Below are positions 5,395 to 63,434 of a stretch of DNA of 64,000 nt, in pieces. Numbering within the stretch: the stretch's first letter is position 1; every line of letters starts with the position of its first letter. A program made the position numbers and the translations under genes. Below the pieces are notes generated by a model that had not been told where the DNA came from, searched no databases, and saw nothing but the letters and a program-made list of their open reading frames with translations. This DNA comes from Gammaproteobacteria bacterium (GTDB lineage: Bacteria; Pseudomonadota; Gammaproteobacteria; Pseudomonadales; Azotimanducaceae), in NCBI GenBank assembly GCA_004357385.1, contig SMWF01000110.1, positions 1-64,000 of the forward strand. Reading direction: 5' to 3'.

Positions 5395-6306
5395 TCACGT
5401 CAGGCTGGTCAGAAACTCCAGGGTTCGATCAAAGGCCCCCTCTTCGACCGGCGTGATCGCGGCGTTGAAATCCGTCACGCCCATGTTGCGCAACCGGTCA
5501 ATCTCGCCGCGCAGATAGTTTTCATCACCCGCCAGCGCGATGTCGGCAGGCCCTGAGACGCCCTCACGATCCAACATCGCACGATAGGACGGTAGCTGCC
5601 CGTACATCGTCAATTGCTCGGCGATTTTTTCCCTCGCCTGGTCCGGCTTGGTGGTCAATATCACGGGGAACCCGCCACAAACGACAGGATCCGGACGACC
5701 GGCAGCAGCAGCAGCAGCGGCCAGCCGTTTGATGATGTGATCTTCCATGGTCCGGGGACCCACCATCCAGGTAATCGTCCCATCGGCAAGTTCGCCCGTG
5801 AGCTTCAACATGACCGGACCGAGTGCGGCGACCAGTATCGGCGGTGGTTCGGCTCCCGGGACACCGAGCTGGACACCGTTGACCCGATACTCATCACCAT
5901 TGTGGGTAACGGCCTCGCCCCGCAGCAATGGCCCCAGCACGGTCAGGTACTCGCGCATATGCTGTGCCGGTTTTTCATAAGAAAAGCCCAGCATGTTCTC
6001 AATGACCACCTGATGTGACAGCCCGATGCCCAGCGAGAAACGATTGTTGCTGGCCGCCGCAGCGGTCAGCGCCTGCTGCGCGATGGCCGTTGGATGACGT
6101 GGATAGGTCGGCGTCACCGCCGTGCCAAGACCGATTCGCTCCGTTTTCTGACCGATCAGCGACAGGGCGGAAATGGCGTCGAACGAGAAGATATTCGCCA
6201 TCCACACGTTGTCCAGACCGCTCGCCTCGGCCTGCACGGCAATGTCGATCACCTGATCGATGGTCGTGCTGGTGCCATCTGCGCCAATCATGATTCCAAT
6301 TCGCAT
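5395..6306 (-). CDS. LLM class oxidoreductase, probably F420-dependent (MSMEG_4879-like)
   Basis: I start the gene at the ATG at 6306, giving 303 residues, because AAAGGAG lies 5 bases upstream and the protein then begins MRIGIMIGADGTSTT, the conserved first strand of this LLM branch. A longer in-frame ORF to 6417 adds only a basic, non-conserved tail. Other landmarks are GLDNVWMANIFSFDA, GLGTAVTPTYPRHP and NNRFSLGIGLSHQ. This matches the F420-dependent TIGR03564-like group, as far as can be judged by eye. It is divergent from the PPOX gene at 6457, and the 150-base gap must hold both promoters. Substrate unknown. Confidence 0.85.
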   Translation of the reverse strand: MRIGIMIGADGTSTTIDQVIDIAVQAEASGLDNVWMANIFSFDAISALSLIGQKTERIGLGTAVTPTYPRHPTAIAQQALTAAAASNNRFSLGIGLSHQVVIENMLGFSYEKPAQHMREYLTVLGPLLRGEAVTHNGDEYRVNGVQLGVPGAEPPPILVAALGPVMLKLTGELADGTITWMVGPRTMEDHIIKRLAAAAAAAGRPDPVVCGGFPVILTTKPDQAREKIAEQLTMYGQLPSYRAMLDREGVSGPADIALAGDENYLRGEIDRLRNMGVTDFNAAITPVEEGAFDRTLEFLTSLT

Positions 6307-6456
6307 GGCTACTCCTTTCCGAACAAAACGCCGAACGGAACGTGTTGAGAAGGGGAGCATCCCAACAGCAATGTCGAATACGGTCAAGCGGTGGCCTCCC
6401 GCGAACGGCGATGCCACAATCGATCGTTCGGAAATTCTCGGGGATCAAGGGACATC

Positions 6457-55016: not shown

Positions 55017-57089
55017 TCAGAACGCCCAATCAACGGTGAGCCCGACTCGTCGAGGCTCGCCGAGTTGGGTATACCCCTTACCCTCGTAGTTGAGGCGCGG
55101 GTCGTTACCGAAGAAAAAGCCACGTGTGCGGTAGTCTTCGTCGGTCAGGTTGCGTCCCCAGACGCGTGCCGACCAGGCGCCTCGCTCGAACCCGATGCTG
55201 GCGTTGAGCAATTCATAAGCATCTGATTGCTCACCGTGACTGTCGGAAAAATAGAACTCATCCTTACCCTCAACCTCGATGCGTGCGAACCAGCCACCAT
55301 GGAAATCGTACTGGGCACTGGCGAAAAACTGGTACCCGGGAGCATGCGCCTGGTCCCGGCCATCGAGGTTCTCGCCGTTACCGTTGATGTAATTTTCATA
55401 TTCGGTGTCCAACAGGCCAAGGCTGGCGAACAACCGCACAGGGTCAGTCACTCGCCAGTCGAGTTCGGCCTCGAGGCCCCAATTGTTGCCTTCGGACGCG
55501 TTTCCAACATAGGCGATGAACTCGGCGCTGCCGTCCGGTCGGACACGGGTTTGCGAGCTCGCGATCTGCATGTCGTCACGCGACATGTAGAACAGCGATA
55601 CTCGAGCCACTACCGTGTCTTCGAGCCAGCTGCCTTTGATCCCGAGTTCGTAGTTGTAAAGCGCTTCAGGATCAAACTCGCGCAAATCCGCATCCAACGT
55701 CCCGTCGGTGTTGAAGCCTCCCGCCTTGTAGCCACGCGAAATGCTCCCGTAGACCAGCGTATCGGAGTTCAGCATATGATCCAGGGCAATCCGGGCGCCC
55801 CACAAATTATCGTCAGGCTCGAAGTGCACGCCCGCATTGTCGTCGTAGTCCGACCCGTGGCGTTCTAGTCGCACGCCCAGGGTGAGGGTCGTCGCATCTC
55901 CCAGAGCACTCTCGGTTTGTCCGAACACGGCGAAACGGTCGACCTCGAAACGACTGTCAAAATCGCTGGCCTGGAACGTGTACTCGCGGGTGAGGTCGAC
56001 CTGCTGATCGAGATAATATGCACCAACTATCCAATCCGTGCTGGACTTGAACAGTCGTCCGTCCGGTTCGGACAGCACGCGCACCTCGGCCGTGCCGGTC
56101 TGACGATCGCGCAGGTAATTGTCCGTGGAACTGTAGCCGAACGGGTGAAACCCGACATAGGTCCAGTCCTCGTCATAGCCATACTCGATGTCCGTGTCGG
56201 CGTAGGTTGCGACCGCTTCAACGCTGAACCGCTCCGCCCCCGACCAACGCCATTGGATGCTGCCAAAGCTCGACTCCTGCCGGTCATGACCCGGCTCATC
56301 GGACAGTGTGTTACGGTCGTTGTCGAGCGAAAACGCGTCATAACCATTGTCGATGTCGATGTAGCCGAGCATGAGATCCAGTTCCGAAGCGTCTCCAACC
56401 AGCCAGCTGAGCTTTCCGCGCAGCGTGAGTTCATTCCGGTCGTTGGTATCGTCGGCATCGAGAAAGTCGTTGTCGATGAACCCGTCACTGACTACTTGCT
56501 GAAGCGCAATCCGGTAGCCCACGCGCTCGCTTAAGGGGCCCGACAATGTGCCCGCCAGGCTGTAGCTGCCATAGTTCGCCAGCTCTGCGCGCAGCGAGCC
56601 CCGTTGCTCGGAGCTCGGCTGGTTGGTGGTGACGTTGATCAGCCCGGCCAAGGCGTTCGCCCCATAACGGGTACCCTGGGGGCCCCGAAAAACCTCCACC
56701 TGGCTGACGTCGTAAAGGGTCCCCACCGCACCCACGCCGCTGAAATCCACGTGATCGATCAGCAACCCAACCGACGAATTGAGGGGCTCGGCAAACTGGC
56801 CGCGCTCACCGATGCCTCGAATCTGGAAATACCTTCCCCGGGAGGCACCATTCGCGTAGTTGACGTTGGCCGTCATCCCAAGCAGTTCCTCGAGATGATG
56901 TGCGTTCCGTGCGGCGATATCCCGCCCGGTCAGCACCGAGACACTTGCCGGGACGGAACGCAGCTCCGGCTCGCGAAACTCGCCCGTAACGACGATCTCC
57001 GGAATGACAGGCTCAGTCCCGGACTCGGCACCCAGTACGACGCATGGCACCGCCAGCGCGACCAGTAGAACTCTCGACAGCAGAATCAT
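55017..57089 (-). CDS. TonB-dependent receptor, thiamine-regulated
   Basis: This 690-residue outer-membrane receptor has a signal peptide (about 1-20), TonB box EIVVTG, plug domain (VPASVSVLTGRDIAARNAHHLEE, then RGPQGTRYGANALAG), and a C-terminal barrel ending in VDWAF. ATG at 57089 with CGGAG 6 bases ahead; an upstream GTG would place it inside the leader. A TPP riboswitch precedes it, so it probably imports thiamine or a precursor across the outer membrane with TonB energy. Confidence 0.92.
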   Translation of the reverse strand: MILLSRVLLVALAVPCVVLGAESGTEPVIPEIVVTGEFREPELRSVPASVSVLTGRDIAARNAHHLEELLGMTANVNYANGASRGRYFQIRGIGERGQFAEPLNSSVGLLIDHVDFSGVGAVGTLYDVSQVEVFRGPQGTRYGANALAGLINVTTNQPSSEQRGSLRAELANYGSYSLAGTLSGPLSERVGYRIALQQVVSDGFIDNDFLDADDTNDRNELTLRGKLSWLVGDASELDLMLGYIDIDNGYDAFSLDNDRNTLSDEPGHDRQESSFGSIQWRWSGAERFSVEAVATYADTDIEYGYDEDWTYVGFHPFGYSSTDNYLRDRQTGTAEVRVLSEPDGRLFKSSTDWIVGAYYLDQQVDLTREYTFQASDFDSRFEVDRFAVFGQTESALGDATTLTLGVRLERHGSDYDDNAGVHFEPDDNLWGARIALDHMLNSDTLVYGSISRGYKAGGFNTDGTLDADLREFDPEALYNYELGIKGSWLEDTVVARVSLFYMSRDDMQIASSQTRVRPDGSAEFIAYVGNASEGNNWGLEAELDWRVTDPVRLFASLGLLDTEYENYINGNGENLDGRDQAHAPGYQFFASAQYDFHGGWFARIEVEGKDEFYFSDSHGEQSDAYELLNASIGFERGAWSARVWGRNLTDEDYRTRGFFFGNDPRLNYEGKGYTQLGEPRRVGLTVDWAF

Positions 57090-57149
57090 CGTTGGCTCCG
57101 GTGGTGATCCGAAGCGACGGGTGGACACGGACGGGTAAGAATGCACAAG

Positions 57150-57260
57150 TCCCTATCCCTACGCCGGTACGAACCGGATCAGGTTCAAAGGGTCCACTGC
57201 TACCGTCGTTCGCGTCGGTGTTCAGCGTCTCAGGTCTTTACGACCACCCCTTGGGTTGCG
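57150..57260 (-). promoter_or_regulatory. TPP riboswitch (THI element)
   Basis: On the minus strand the element shows GGGGTG, then GGTCGTAAAGACCTGAGA (P3 with the CTGAGA core), and after a variable arm ACCCTTTGAACCTGATC, GGTTCGTACC and GGCGTAGGGA. These are the conserved blocks of the thiamine pyrophosphate riboswitch. It lies about 60 bases upstream of the TonB receptor start. Thiamine pyrophosphate binding would lower expression, by termination or by hiding the ribosome site; the expression platform was not resolved. Confidence 0.95.
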
Positions 57261-57294
57261 CGCATTGTGCGCGCCTCGTTTCATCGATGCAAAC

Positions 57295-58962
57295 TCATCC
57301 GGTGTCCGACGCATTAGTGGCCTCGCGCAAGTCCGGAAGCACGTAGCCCTGTGCATCCAGATTCCCGCGCACCCGCTTCTTGTCCATCTTGCCGGTACCG
57401 GTGAGCGGGATATCGTCAACAAACAGCACGTCATCGGGCAGCTGCCACTTGGCAAACCGGGTCGCACAATGGGCAAGAACCTGATCCGCATCAACACCCG
57501 CCCCTTCGTCGAGTATCACCAGTGCAACGGGGCGCTCATCCCATCGGGGGTGGGGTCGCGCCACGACACAAGCCTGGGCGACACCAGCGATCGCCACGAT
57601 GTGATTTTCAAGGTCGACCGAAGAGATCCACTCGCCACCCGACTTGATCAGATCCTTGGAACGGTCGCTGATGATCAGGTATTCATCCGGATCGATCATC
57701 CCGACGTCCCCGGTGATCAGCCAACCGTCATGGAATTTATCGGGTTGCGGGTCGTGGTAGTACTCAGAACAGATCCACGGTCCGCGGATCAGAATTTCCC
57801 CGACCGCCTCGCCGTCGTGTGGCAGTCGATTGAACGTTTCATCGAAGATATCGAGTTCAAGACCAGGCATCAGCTGGCCGGCTTTGGCGACGTTTTCGAA
57901 CTGCTCATCGTCAGTGAGCTTGAGCTGACCGCGCTTCATTACCCTTCGAGACAGCGTTGCCAGCGGGCTGGTCTCCGTCATGCCCCAGCCCTGGATCATC
58001 TCGACGCCCAACTCATCGGCATACCAGCGAATCAGTGAGGGCGGCGGGGCCGAACCCCCACAGGTCAGTCGATCCAGCTTCGACAGATCGGCGGCGTTCG
58101 GATTGGCCTCGACCATCGCCTTGACCCCCTGCCAGATCGTCGGCACGCCAGCGGAGATCGTCACGCCCTCGCTGGACATCAGTTCCAGAATGCGCGCCGG
58201 ATCCATGAAGCGGTGCACCATGACCTGCTTCATGCCCAGCATGGTGGCCGCCCACGGCAAACCCCAACCCATCGCGTGGAACATCGGCACGATGCCGCAC
58301 AGACAGTCGGTGCCGGTGAGCCCCATGGCATCGGTCATGCATTGGGTGAGGGTATGCAGATACTGAGAACGGTGCTCGTACTCCACGCCCTTCGGGTTGC
58401 CCGTCGTGCCGCTCGTGTAGCACAGTCCGAGTGGCGAATTCTCATCGATGTCGGGCCATTCATAGTCGGTCGGCTTGCCCGCGATGAATGCTTCGTAGTC
58501 GACGGCGTTCGGCAGATCCGTGTGCCAACCCTCCTCTCCCGCTTCCGTGGCAACGACGACCTGCTGGACACTGGGCATTCGACCGTCGAGCTTTTCGAGC
58601 AGCGGCAGCACGCTGGCGTCGACGATGATCAGCTTGTCCTGGGCGTGTTCAACGATATAGGCGAGATCCGAATCGGACAGTCGTACGTTGAGGGTGTGCA
58701 GGACCGCGCCCATCCCCGCGGTCGCGTGATAGGCCTCGAGGTGGCGCGAGCCGTTCCACATGAAGGTCGCGACCCGATCGCCCACTGCTACGCCCGCCTC
58801 GGCCAGCGCATGAGCCAGCTGATGGGCACGGTCACGGGTCTGACGATAGGTCTGACGCCGCACGCCCGTTGCTGTGGCGGTCACGATTTCTTCATGCGGC
58901 GCGACCTTCGCCCCGCGATCCAGCAATCGGTGCATCAACAGAGGGGTGTGCTGCATGGCCAT
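57295..58962 (-). CDS. Fatty-acid-CoA ligase (AMP-forming)
   Basis: The protein has 555 residues when started at the ATG at 58962, with GGAG about 10 bases ahead. The P-loop YTSGTTGNPKG, GWGMTETSPLATL, GWLITGDVGMID and SDRSKDLIKSGGEWISS are complete, and GTGKMDKKRVR carries the C-terminal Lys. It resembles medium/long-chain ligases that keep a FadD3 or AlkK style. It is first downstream of the TPP riboswitch in reading order only on paper: the receptor lies beyond it on the same strand. Confidence 0.92.
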   Translation of the reverse strand: MAMQHTPLLMHRLLDRGAKVAPHEEIVTATATGVRRQTYRQTRDRAHQLAHALAEAGVAVGDRVATFMWNGSRHLEAYHATAGMGAVLHTLNVRLSDSDLAYIVEHAQDKLIIVDASVLPLLEKLDGRMPSVQQVVVATEAGEEGWHTDLPNAVDYEAFIAGKPTDYEWPDIDENSPLGLCYTSGTTGNPKGVEYEHRSQYLHTLTQCMTDAMGLTGTDCLCGIVPMFHAMGWGLPWAATMLGMKQVMVHRFMDPARILELMSSEGVTISAGVPTIWQGVKAMVEANPNAADLSKLDRLTCGGSAPPPSLIRWYADELGVEMIQGWGMTETSPLATLSRRVMKRGQLKLTDDEQFENVAKAGQLMPGLELDIFDETFNRLPHDGEAVGEILIRGPWICSEYYHDPQPDKFHDGWLITGDVGMIDPDEYLIISDRSKDLIKSGGEWISSVDLENHIVAIAGVAQACVVARPHPRWDERPVALVILDEGAGVDADQVLAHCATRFAKWQLPDDVLFVDDIPLTGTGKMDKKRVRGNLDAQGYVLPDLREATNASDTG

Positions 58963-59154
58963 GAACGGTCGATCTCCGCGACGACAAACGCCCGGATGGT
59001 ACCCCAGCATGCTGCTTTGGGATACGCGGGCTGGGCTTTCCGCCACCATCGGCCGCTTGCCCGACGAAACGGCAGTATTTTCATGGCCAGACTGATCCAT
59101 CAGTCGGTCTCCCGCGAAAGACGCGAGTCGCCAGATCTGACGTGCGTGGCGTGA

Positions 59155-60138
59155 TTAGAAGCGCGCGCCAAGCAGCAACTGGAACACCACGTCGGGCGAT
59201 GAATCGCTCACCAGGTCCTCCGACAGCGCGACGTCCGTCCAGAATTTCCTGTTGAACGCAAAGCGCGCCCCGACCGAGCCCTGCAGCGCTTCGCCACTGA
59301 CCTGATCCAAACCGGTACCAATCAGCTCGGTATGACCATCGAGTTGCGCTTTCAACGTCCAGCGCGCAGTGATCGGATAGCTCAACCCCAGGTGCCCGAA
59401 CAGCGCAACGTCGTTCTGCTCTTCAGGGACGAGCTCGCCTTCTTCCATCAGCAGCACGCCGCCCGTCATGGTGAGTTCAAGCCCCAGGCGAGACAACCAG
59501 CGCCGATCGGTAAAATCAATCCACACGGCCAGATCCGTTCCGTCCGAGCCGGTCAGCTTGTCGGCGTCGCCGGTTGGCAGCTTCAGTGATCCCCTCAGCG
59601 CCAGCGCGCGATCCCCCTCCTGCAGCCAACCGAACGCGCCCGAAAAACGTATATCGCCGAGCGACTCTTTGCTGTCCTGGAAGTCGATATAGCTCGTCCC
59701 TGCGCTGCGAATCACGTAGTCGATCTTGTTCCGTTGCGCATCATCGCGGCCCCCCTGGGGAAAGCCGAACAGATCGTGAAACTCATCGATGACCCGATCC
59801 AGGCGTCCACCGTGGTGAATCACGTAGGGCACCTCGATGCCAATTTCGAAGCGCCGGCCCAAGGGCCGCCGATAGCCGGCTGTCATGGTAACGGTCTCAC
59901 CATCGAAGAACGCGAAACTGCCGTCCTCGACATCACTGGTGAACACGTTTGCAATCTCCGTGTTGAAGGTCAGTTCGTGATCGGAGCGCAGCAACGCTCC
60001 ACCCAGCGCCCGCGGCAGCCCGAAGATCTGCGAGGCCGGAGAGGCGTTGCGAATCCGCAGAGGTCCATCAATCGCATGGGTTGTATGGGAAAGGAGTAAC
60101 AGACTGATCGCCGTGACAAACTGCGTCGCTCGCTGCAT
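59155..60138 (-). CDS. DUF3187 family outer-membrane-type protein
   Basis: This 327-residue protein has a signal peptide (MQRATQFVTAISLLLLSHTTHA), then GPLRIRNASPASQIFGLPRA, the DUF3187 entry motif, and many amphipathic beta-strands up to a terminal Phe (LLLGARF), as in outer-membrane barrels. The ATG overlaps the upstream ligase stop by one base, with GAGGAG 9 bases ahead. It may be a porin or lipid channel supplying the ligase. Confidence 0.8.
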   Translation of the reverse strand: MQRATQFVTAISLLLLSHTTHAIDGPLRIRNASPASQIFGLPRALGGALLRSDHELTFNTEIANVFTSDVEDGSFAFFDGETVTMTAGYRRPLGRRFEIGIEVPYVIHHGGRLDRVIDEFHDLFGFPQGGRDDAQRNKIDYVIRSAGTSYIDFQDSKESLGDIRFSGAFGWLQEGDRALALRGSLKLPTGDADKLTGSDGTDLAVWIDFTDRRWLSRLGLELTMTGGVLLMEEGELVPEEQNDVALFGHLGLSYPITARWTLKAQLDGHTELIGTGLDQVSGEALQGSVGARFAFNRKFWTDVALSEDLVSDSSPDVVFQLLLGARF

Positions 60139-61694
60139 CAATTGATACTCCTCGATTCGCCGTCCCAGAACGGCCTGCGCAGCTCGACCTTCAGGATCTT
60201 GCCCGCCCCGCTCTTGGGAAGATCAATGTCGCGCACGTCAAAACTCTTCGGACATTTGTAACCCGCGATGCGACTTCTACAATGACTGAACAGGTCCTGC
60301 GTGCTGACCGTCATCCCGGGTCTGAGCGTTACCACCGCATGCACCGCTTCGCCCCAATCTGCGCTGGGAATGCCGATCACCGCACACTCTGCTATTGCGG
60401 GGTGCTGATAGAGAACGTTCTCGACTTCCGCGGAGTACACATTTTCGCCGCCCGTGACGATCATGTCCTTGATGCGATCCACCAAAAATAGAAATCCCCG
60501 CTCGCCGATGTAGCCGGCATCCCCGGTGTGCATCCACCCACCGCGTAGGGTTTGGGCCGTGAGTTCGGGTTGCTGCCAATAGCCGCGCATGACCATCGGG
60601 CCGCGGACACAGATCTCCCCCACCTCACCATCCTCCAGACTATTGCCGTCGACATCGAGAATCACAATGTCCGCGTTGTAGACCGGCCGCCCGGCGGACC
60701 GCACGAATCCCGCATCGGGGCCATCGAACACGTGGAAACGTGGCTCCAGCACGGTGGCCACCGGCGACAACTCGGTCATCCCATAGGACTGGAGAAACCG
60801 CACGTCGGGAAACAGCGCCATGGCCCGCTCAAGCAAGGCCTCCGGCATCGGCGAAGCGCCATAGGACAGCATGTCGAGGCAGGAGAGGTCGTAGTCGCCG
60901 AGACCCGGATGATTGACTAGCCGGTTCAACATGGTCGGCACCACGACGGTGAGCGTGACGCGAAATCGCTCGAGCGCGCCCAGAAACAGGCTGGGTTCGA
61001 AGGTAGGAATCACCGCGTGGGTGCCGCCGGCAACGGTGACGCTGAACAGACGGGCGCCGCCCGCAACATGGAACATCGGCGAAACGTGCAGGTGGATCGT
61101 CGCGCCGCTGATGTTCATGTTGGCCATCGCCGTCAACGAGTTTGCCATCAGATTGGCGTGGCTCAACATCACGCCCTTGGCGCGCCCCGTGGTCCCGCCG
61201 GTATAGAACAGCGCGGCAAGATCATCGTTGTGGCGCACTGCATCCGGCGCCGGCGCCGCGGCGCGGATGAGCGTCTCGGTACTGACAAGGCCATGGTCGT
61301 CGTCTGCCGCTGCCAGCAGAATCTGGCGAAGGGCCGGACACTGCTCGCGCAATTCGTCGGCCCAACCACAGTGCTCTGCGTCGACCAGCAGCAGCACCAC
61401 CGCGGCATCATTGAGGCACGCCGCGATTTCCTGCGTCGTCCAACGGGTGTTTACCGGGACCATGACCGCGCCGGCCCAAAGCGTCGCGAAGTAATATTCG
61501 ACGTAGCGATCGCTGTTGCCGGCCAGCATGGCGATCCGCTCGCCCGGAGCAACCCCCAACTCCCGAAATCCGCCCGCCAGGCGCGCGATCCGGTCTTTGA
61601 ATTCGGCCCAACTCACGGTCCGTTCGAGGCTGACCAGCGCGGCCTTATCCGGCGAGATGTTCGCCGCGCGATGAATGCCCTGGGTCAGTTGCAT
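60138..61694 (-). CDS. AMP-dependent acyl-CoA ligase
   Basis: This 518-residue AMP-forming ligase has YTGGTTGRAKGVMLSHANL, QSYGMTELSPVATVLE, GWMHTGDAGYIGERG, and RIKDMIVTGGENVYSAEVE, ending KILKVELRRP. The closeness to FadD-type class I ligases is clear; chain length cannot be read. It is translationally linked to the DUF3187 gene, which suggests uptake plus activation of one substrate. Confidence 0.93.
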   Translation of the reverse strand: MQLTQGIHRAANISPDKAALVSLERTVSWAEFKDRIARLAGGFRELGVAPGERIAMLAGNSDRYVEYYFATLWAGAVMVPVNTRWTTQEIAACLNDAAVVLLLVDAEHCGWADELREQCPALRQILLAAADDDHGLVSTETLIRAAAPAPDAVRHNDDLAALFYTGGTTGRAKGVMLSHANLMANSLTAMANMNISGATIHLHVSPMFHVAGGARLFSVTVAGGTHAVIPTFEPSLFLGALERFRVTLTVVVPTMLNRLVNHPGLGDYDLSCLDMLSYGASPMPEALLERAMALFPDVRFLQSYGMTELSPVATVLEPRFHVFDGPDAGFVRSAGRPVYNADIVILDVDGNSLEDGEVGEICVRGPMVMRGYWQQPELTAQTLRGGWMHTGDAGYIGERGFLFLVDRIKDMIVTGGENVYSAEVENVLYQHPAIAECAVIGIPSADWGEAVHAVVTLRPGMTVSTQDLFSHCRSRIAGYKCPKSFDVRDIDLPKSGAGKILKVELRRPFWDGESRSIN

Positions 61695-61811: not shown

Positions 61812-63434
61812 CTATGCCCCGTAGGCTGCCTCCGCAGTACGTCGCGCCCATTTGTAGTCGGGTTTGCCGTTGGCCGCGCGACGCACCTCGTCGACGAACA
61901 GGATGTGTTTCGGCACTTTGTAGCCGGCGAGCTGCTGCCGGGCATACTCGATCACTTCGTGTTCGGCCTGTTGCGCCGACTCCCGAAGCGAAGTGACCGC
62001 AACGACACGCTCTCCAAACCGCTCATCCGGCACCCCGACAACCAGGCAATCGAGCACCGTCTCAAACCGTTTCACTGCCTCTTCGACCTCTTCGGGAAAC
62101 ACTTTCTCACCCGCCGTATTGATGCAGACGCTGCCCCGTCCCAACAAGGTGATCGAGCCGTCGGCCTCCACCCGCGCGTAGTCGCCTGGAAAGCTGTAAC
62201 GCACGCCGTCGATCTCGCGAAACGTCTCGGCCGACTTCACCGGATCTTTGTAGTAGCCGATGGGTACCAGGCCGCTGCTAGCGACCCGCCCGACCGCTTC
62301 ATCGCCGGGTTGCAGTTCCCGCCCGTCATCGGCAAACACCTTCACCCCTTCACTGAGCTCGAAGGTGGCGGTCCGCGGCGAACGATCGCGGCTGGTGACC
62401 GAACTACCCATGCCGCCTTCCGTCGAACCCATGGTATCGACCAGTTCCATGTCGTGGTGTTCAAGCAGCCCTTCCTTGACTTCCGCGCTCCACATCACCC
62501 CACTGGAGACGATCTGGGTCAGCGACGCGAGATCGAAGGGATGGCCTGCATCACGCGCCGCATTCAACGACTCCAGCATCGGGCGCGCAAACGCATCACC
62601 AACGATCACTACCGACGTTGCGCGATGCTGTTCAACTAGGCTCCACATCAGGTCCGGATCAAAGCCGAGCTTCGAAAACGTGACCACGCTGCCGCCCAGC
62701 AGCAGCGGAATGAACGTTCCAAGCCACATCCCGGTGCCGTGCATCAACGGGCAGCCGACGACGCTGCGCGGCACACCCCCGGCAGCGGCGAGTCGCGTGA
62801 CCAGATCCGGCAACTCGTCCACGGACGTTGGAACATCGAATCCATGCGCCACATAGCCCATGCACATAGCCATGCAGAACTCACCATTGTTGTACATCAC
62901 ACCCTTGGGTAACCCGGTGGTCCCGCCCGTGTACAGCATGTACAGGTCATCCATCGCGCGCTCCACTCGCGGCGCGGGAGGGTTGCCACGCAGCCCGCGC
63001 TCAAAGTCGACCGCGTCGTGCAGGAGCGCCTCGGTACCATCATCCACCTGCACCCAGAGTTTGACCTTGGGCAGCCGGTCGCGAATCTCCCAGATGCGCA
63101 TCGCGTAGCAGGCCTGATAAACCACTGCCTCGGCATCGGCGTTGTCGAGCAGGTACACCAGCTCGTCGGCCTTGTAGCGGTAGTTCACATTGATCGGGCA
63201 ACCACGAATCTTGAAGATCCCATACTGGGCTTCGAGGTATTCGTTGCAGTTGTGCAGATAGATGCCCACCTTGGCGCCGGCGCCCAACCCCGCGCCTTCC
63301 AGAACCGCTGCAAACCGCGCCGCGCGATCATCGTATTCGCGCCAGCTGTGGGTCTGGTTACCGCAGATCAGCGCAGGCTGATCGGGAATGGTATCCGCGA
63401 TCCGCTCCCACGCCGTCGCAAAGTGGAAATTCAT
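61812..63434 (-). CDS. Acyl-CoA synthetase (AMP-forming)
   Basis: This 540-residue ligase has MLYTGGTTGLPKGVMYNN, DTMGSTEGGMG, SFPGDYARVEADG, and RGSVCINTAGEKVFPEEVE. The MGSTEGG motif and FadD-like C-terminus resemble actinobacterial FadD2/FadD19-type enzymes. GGGGA is 5 bases ahead of the ATG. It is the fourth acyl ligase in the window and reads in the same direction as the one before it, with a 117-base gap. Confidence 0.92.
   Translation of the reverse strand: MNFHFATAWERIADTIPDQPALICGNQTHSWREYDDRAARFAAVLEGAGLGAGAKVGIYLHNCNEYLEAQYGIFKIRGCPINVNYRYKADELVYLLDNADAEAVVYQACYAMRIWEIRDRLPKVKLWVQVDDGTEALLHDAVDFERGLRGNPPAPRVERAMDDLYMLYTGGTTGLPKGVMYNNGEFCMAMCMGYVAHGFDVPTSVDELPDLVTRLAAAGGVPRSVVGCPLMHGTGMWLGTFIPLLLGGSVVTFSKLGFDPDLMWSLVEQHRATSVVIVGDAFARPMLESLNAARDAGHPFDLASLTQIVSSGVMWSAEVKEGLLEHHDMELVDTMGSTEGGMGSSVTSRDRSPRTATFELSEGVKVFADDGRELQPGDEAVGRVASSGLVPIGYYKDPVKSAETFREIDGVRYSFPGDYARVEADGSITLLGRGSVCINTAGEKVFPEEVEEAVKRFETVLDCLVVGVPDERFGERVVAVTSLRESAQQAEHEVIEYARQQLAGYKVPKHILFVDEVRRAANGKPDYKWARRTAEAAYGA

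Follow-up and report, generated by a model that had tools for sequence, protein, structure and literature searches.

A TPP riboswitch before a predicted thiamine receptor in a gammaproteobacterium with no apparent vitamin B1 synthesis

We analyzed a 64,000-nucleotide stretch of gammaproteobacterial DNA (hereafter, the window) in which a TPP riboswitch directly precedes the gene of a TonB-dependent receptor. In our reading, to which we give a probability of about 0.86, the riboswitch represses, most likely at translation, a receptor through which a thiamine auxotroph takes up the intact vitamin (or its phosphate esters). TPP binding, translational control and the substrate of the receptor are what we infer beyond the computed aptamer, its position, the receptor domains, the conservation of the pair and the mutual exclusion with ThiC. 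A TPP switch before the receptor, in a host that seemingly cannot make vitamin B1, makes it very probable that the receptor imports the vitamin; thiamine import across the outer membrane explains the data best, as the receptor tracks the loss of synthesis and in many relatives heads a row of genes that includes an APH-fold kinase and a PnuC/PnuT-type transporter. The pairing of riboswitch and receptor is already known from other bacteria (the Omr1/OMthi kind). The less expected part of our result is that 24 of 40 genomes with the receptor, including the one from which the window comes, show no PnuT-type protein.

An earlier note on this DNA had proposed a TPP riboswitch at 57089-57260 and a covariance search with RF00059 as its check. 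Run on the window, this search returned the aptamer as the sole RNA match at the gathering level, covering the whole model (positions 1-105 of 105, E 4.6e-10; Table 1). The three conserved blocks that had been quoted (CUGAGA, ACCUGAUC and GGCGUAGGGA) are all present on the minus strand, and the proposed span corresponds to the aptamer plus the leader as far as the start codon. The aptamer deviates from the ideal fold in a few places: two of the five P1 pairs are A-A, and two other helices carry one non-standard pair each. In an alignment of 36 riboswitches the core is mostly invariant, and the covariance model built from 36 such sites (R1) gives the window aptamer 82.9 bits, the window's own site being part of the training set. 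The 3.47 Mb assembly of the organism (142 contigs, 92.7% complete) contains no other RF00059 match; together with the conservation of the pair in relatives, this places the riboswitch beyond chance. Judged from its sequence, the aptamer would bind TPP and regulate the gene that follows.

Table 1. Features of the riboswitch-receptor locus, in window coordinates
Feature	Position	Strand	Remark
TonB-dependent receptor, 690 aa, predicted thiamine receptor (Omr1/OMthi type)	55017..57089	-	PF07715, PF00593
Shine-Dalgarno arm CCGGAGC	57095..57101	-	GGAG 57096-57099, 6 nt before AUG
Putative leader element UCGGAUCA, complement of aptamer bases, overlaps anti-Shine-Dalgarno arm	57105..57112	-	
Predicted anti-Shine-Dalgarno arm GCUUCGG of sequestering hairpin	57109..57115	-	pairs with 57095-57101 in predicted fold
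TPP riboswitch aptamer (RF00059)	57138..57261	-	cmscan 63.2 bits, gathering 54.3, full-length match
Aptamer bases UGAUCCGG, proposed partner of leader UCGGAUCA without TPP	57174..57181	-	7 Watson-Crick pairs and one G-U
Acyl-CoA ligase type gene, neighbor outside the system	57295..59100	-	upstream, same strand; ends 33 nt before aptamer

The TonB-dependent receptor announced behind the riboswitch is indeed there: the minus-strand reading frame from 57089 to 55017, whose AUG lies 48 nt downstream of the aptamer, encodes a plug (60.2 bits) and a barrel (106.2 bits). Its AlphaFold2 model is confident (mean pLDDT 89.6, pTM 0.90), and the closest solved folds are FyuA (4epa) and then PqqU (9c4o), at about 20% identity; none of the 50 matches listed is described as a thiamine receptor. 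The top NCBIfam model, the siderophore-receptor family TIGR01783, reaches 176.8 bits, below its cut-off of 223.5, so the assignment of specificity rests on context. Conserved acidic and aromatic residues of the barrel, e.g., D251, D306, D308 and W309, may be ligand contacts. Upstream of the locus, the window carries three AMP-binding (acyl-CoA ligase type) genes on the minus strand (57295-59100, 60138-61694 and 61812-63434), with a DUF3187 protein (59155-60141) between the first two.

The earlier note had also remarked that no thiamine biosynthetic gene is nearby, and for ThiC and ThiE this extends to the whole genome: at 92.7% completeness neither of them, nor thiamine pyrophosphokinase (PF04263), was matched in the assembly, and for ThiG there are only three partial matches of 19-21 bits, one of which rises to 23.5 with its neighbors (lenient Pfam cut-off 23). 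Genuine ThiG proteins of relatives score 297-385 bits; marginal partial matches (19-27 bits, up to 38 with neighbors) were left uncounted, even where they pass the lenient cut-off. ThiL is present (244.7 bits). With this gene complement the bacterium apparently cannot make vitamin B1 and should need thiamine, TMP or TPP.

The same pattern holds across a set of 58 genomes that includes the window's own. The receptor (E <= 1e-60) occurs in 40 of them and ThiC in 17; 40 have the receptor without ThiC, 17 have ThiC without the receptor, the two never occur together, and G050 alone lacks both (Fisher p 9e-14, uncorrected for kinship). ThiE above its cut-off and ThiG of at least 297 bits are found in 17 and 19 genomes, respectively, and in each case only one of these, G034, also has the receptor; among the other 39 receptor genomes, G019 has a weak ThiE match of 35.6 bits. 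ThiL matches all 58 genomes (54 over the cut-off), and thiamine pyrophosphokinase matches a single one, which is not the window's own. In G050, a TPP riboswitch leads an NMT1/THI5-like binding protein (L038, near 6278-6364), and the genome has ThiE and ThiG.

Riboswitch and receptor are conserved as a pair. TPP matches occur at 54 places in 49 of the 58 genomes; at 36 of the 51 places examined (the window and 50 others) the receptor lies directly downstream, two places reach a contig end (G025, G030), and 13 lead other genes, thiC among them in eight and others in five. Viewed from the receptor, 36 of the 40 genomes have the riboswitch just upstream, three are interrupted by a contig break (G017, G025, G030), and one of 2.1 Mb (G023) has no riboswitch match there. 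We also scanned public contigs and, from at least 593 relatives, kept the 80 best; most of these are Gammaproteobacteria, among them Colwellia, Thalassotalea, Shewanella and Porticoccus. With model R1, the riboswitch was found upstream of the receptor at 73 of these 80 loci, one of them weak (L129, E 0.013), compared with 26 caught by a strict regular expression. A contig end accounts for three of the seven misses (L140, L146, L179); the other four (L172, L175, L185, L193) are real. A few of the 80 loci were in the training set of the model, and some appear to be members of the 58-genome set (e.g., L116 as G022, L119 as G015 and L149 as G035), so the two sets of counts are not independent.

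The genes that follow the receptor bear on the inner-membrane step. Home-made profiles were applied to the 73 public loci whose downstream sequence spans 1.8 kb or more (a different 73 from the riboswitch-positive loci). Just after the receptor, a PnuC/PnuT-type gene (PF04973 type) is found at 60 of them, a small Ykof-type protein at 52 and an APH-type kinase at 48; 13 have none of the three. Representative proteins of relatives are recognized by PF04973, PF01636 and, with 22.9 bits against a cut-off of 21, PF07615. The operon kinases reach 73-76 bits against ThiK and 72-75 against GntI, all far below the cut-offs. NCBIfam labels the receptor-linked transporter PnuC, and the cut-off of the corresponding equivalog model, TIGR01528, is passed by receptor-linked and NadR-linked proteins alike, so PnuT may go unnoticed under the automatic label of nicotinamide riboside transporter. 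In a tree of 52 PF04973 proteins, the receptor-linked ones separate from those linked to a NadR-type kinase (support 99/94), and a second tree, with two added proteins and with neighbors taken from all open reading frames including genes beneath antisense ones, gives the same split (100/96); neither tree contains a named PnuT.

By this division, the receptor-linked PF04973 proteins of relatives stand apart from NadR-linked PnuC, and the window's own genome has none of them, either beside the receptor or elsewhere. Its only PF04973 protein (G000:C63) groups with the NadR-kinase-linked proteins, and we rejected it as a PnuT on the strength of the trees and of an adjoining NadR-type kinase (PF13521 103 bits; TIGR01526 62.6 bits, far below its cut-off). 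On that contig (L089, 7603-9703) the PnuC-type gene overlaps the gene of the NadR-like P-loop kinase and an APH-type kinase gene converges on them; PnuC and an APH protein share one stretch in a number of relatives as well. A PnuT-type protein is present in 16 of the 40 receptor genomes (directly behind the receptor in 13, G032 among them, and elsewhere in three), whereas 21 have only another PF04973 protein and three have none; the 13 adjacent cases fall among the 36 paired riboswitch sites. Other candidate partners in the window's own genome fared no better. ThiBPQ was rejected, since TIGR01254 is unmatched there and exceeds its cut-off in G003 and G041 alone. PF07615 matches four of the 58 genomes, the window's own not included, but the home-made profile finds Ykof-type proteins that PF07615 misses (10 sites after the receptor), which makes this absence weak evidence. 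The best thiamine-kinase-like protein is the APH protein beside PnuC, at a weak 66 bits with the operon-kinase alignment and 26.9 bits against TIGR02721 (cut-off 299). We note also a weak Ykof-type match in G009 (L060; 37.7 bits), after the receptor and about 2.1 kb past the riboswitch, at a locus with no PnuT-type gene, and a second TPP riboswitch in G003 (L047, 2103-2212), besides the receptor one, before ThiB-type and ABC permease-like genes.

Several other substrates have to be weighed against free thiamine. That the receptor takes up a siderophore and has acquired its TPP leader by happenstance would fit FyuA, the yersiniabactin/pesticin receptor, being the nearest solved relative in both sequence and fold; the conserved TPP leader, the genes that follow and the mutual exclusion with ThiC make such a coincidence scarcely credible. 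Uptake of a precursor (an HMP-like pyrimidine or a thiazole) is very improbable as a general function: precursor transporters are also placed under TPP riboswitches in passages of PMC3766115, and G034, with ThiE, ThiG and the receptor in the absence of ThiC, is a genome in which precursor uptake may occur, but in 39 of the 40 receptor genomes, among them the window's own, no ThiE exceeds the family cut-off, and without ThiE pyrimidine and thiazole cannot be joined and would be of no use. (G034 also has a second, sub-threshold TPP match of 51.2 bits upstream of its ThiE and ThiG genes; L051, 6166-6300, G034:C192.) That the receptor mainly takes up TMP or TPP, the phosphorylated forms, and not free thiamine is unlikely; in favor of it, the host has ThiL, no match to thiamine pyrophosphokinase and only the weak kinase candidate described above. 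Against it stand the many relatives that carry, behind the receptor, the genes one would expect for free thiamine (a PnuC/PnuT-type transporter and an APH-type kinase), and the thiamine transport by PnuT that is reported in parts of PMC5613172 and PMC7749635. The import of intact thiamine has weak points of its own, namely the lack of a PnuT-type partner in the window's genome, the receptor of G023 without a riboswitch, and the four of 80 public loci that lack one despite having room for it. On balance, of the earlier proposal that the receptor imports “thiamine or a precursor”, the thiamine part is supported by the distribution of receptor and ThiC and by the following genes, while the precursor part is narrowed by the missing ThiE.

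The leader looks like a translational off-switch in which a hairpin buries the Shine-Dalgarno sequence. At low cellular TPP, the leader would adopt a fold that lets the ribosome site open, allowing synthesis of the receptor; at high TPP, the aptamer would close and the hairpin would bury the Shine-Dalgarno sequence. Part of the folding evidence fits this scheme. Across 34 leaders including the window's, the predicted accessibility of the Shine-Dalgarno sequence averages 0.13 versus 0.24 in shuffles (p 0.0003) and is under 0.3 in 29; the set leaves out G048 (no start) and G005, and it counts four leaders (G039, G032, G024, G004) whose automatic start codons, 191-260 nt past the aptamer, are probably wrong. 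In the window, the unpaired probability of the Shine-Dalgarno sequence is 0.00-0.02 in the free ensemble and 0.00-0.06 with the aptamer enforced; the sequence is thus buried in both, and the calculation shows no TPP-dependent change. In a forced open state, 0.8 kcal/mol higher than the other state, it re-pairs with early coding sequence. This missing release could be taken to favor control at transcription through a terminator, as in the TPP riboswitch of Bacillus subtilis tenA (described in part of PMC3280964). However, a consensus scan of 57000-57600 found no terminator or promoter, the gap between aptamer and AUG is short, and the predicted hairpin sits on the Shine-Dalgarno sequence itself, so we consider a terminator quite improbable.

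How aptamer and leader might communicate under translational control is suggested by their complementarity. In the window, the aptamer word UGAUCCG complements CGGAUCA in the leader, and a run of at least seven such pairs arises in a fraction of 0.03 of 200 shuffles of this leader. Complements of at least this length occur in 23 of 106 leaders (receptor-linked and other leaders mixed, L129 left out) and are thus not general. A smaller signal is more widespread: the base after the aptamer CCGG complements the base before the leader CCGG in 38 of 85 receptor-linked leaders, versus a shuffle mean of 21.2 and with none of 5000 shuffles (which ignore kinship) reaching 38. The match holds in 12 of 35 leaders from the genome set (27 of 5000 shuffles as high) and in 26 of 50 public ones (0 of 5000), and the controls, a shift by one base or by two and coding sequence, show no excess. 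The rows had been pruned by hand, from 72 public loci to 54, of which 50 have the motif, and 35 of the 36 genome-set leaders have it. In the window, the leader ACCGG that follows this pattern overlaps the Shine-Dalgarno sequence itself, and the seven-base word lies on the anti-Shine-Dalgarno side, a layout unlike that of relatives such as G033. A narrow look at excerpts of the literature found no earlier description of this covariation.

The closest known systems are likened to ours by context. Omr1 is a predicted TonB-dependent thiamine receptor with a TPP riboswitch, reportedly described by Rodionov in 2002. It shares with the window receptor the riboswitch and the receptor type, a likeness of context rather than of aligned sequence, and PnuT, the usual though not strictly required companion of Omr1/OMthi, is absent beside the window receptor. 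Passages of PMC10881298 and PMC12442306 place a TDP riboswitch close to omr1 in two SAR86 clusters (PMC10881298) and two Flavobacteriales clusters, report omr1 expression in Cellvibrionales (PMC12442306), and term the specificity of the receptor unclear or potential; thiamin TonB receptors are also predicted in parts of PMC2771747 and PMC3400609. Genetic evidence comes from Bacteroides thetaiotaomicron, where, according to passages of PMC5613172, OMthi (BT2390) is a TPP-riboswitch-associated TonB-dependent thiamine receptor: in cells that have lost synthesis, losing OMthi as well makes them need about ten times more thiamine, its deletion alone has no growth effect, its transcript is little changed by thiamine, and OMthi and pnuT are split. 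The host of OMthi belongs to another phylum, makes thiamine and uses pnuT-tnr3, whereas the window's host has ThiL and no match to thiamine pyrophosphokinase; here, too, the likeness is one of context and not of compared sequence. The E. coli thiM TPP riboswitch likewise acts on translation by burying the Shine-Dalgarno sequence (part of PMC3280964); the window switch stands on a different gene, and in our set the base that follows CCGG in the aptamer covaries with the leader.

Once inside the cell, thiamine would be phosphorylated to TMP by an APH-type kinase, and ThiL would take TMP to TPP. As a tentative extension that we hold to be rather doubtful, the family may have kept a TPP-controlled receptor while in many members PnuT was replaced by an unrecognized inner-membrane route, perhaps the single PnuC beside NadR-like and APH kinases serving both nicotinamide riboside and thiamine, and may share a strand-exchange switch in which the aptamer CCGG strand and the next base pair with the anti-Shine-Dalgarno side. 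As a genomic example the locus is clean: in an auxotrophic lineage, a TonB-dependent receptor appears to cover the demand for thiamine. The substrate is narrowed to thiamine that is intact or phosphorylated, and attention is directed to an inner-membrane transporter yet to be assigned and to a testable base pairing through which riboswitches of this kind may act.
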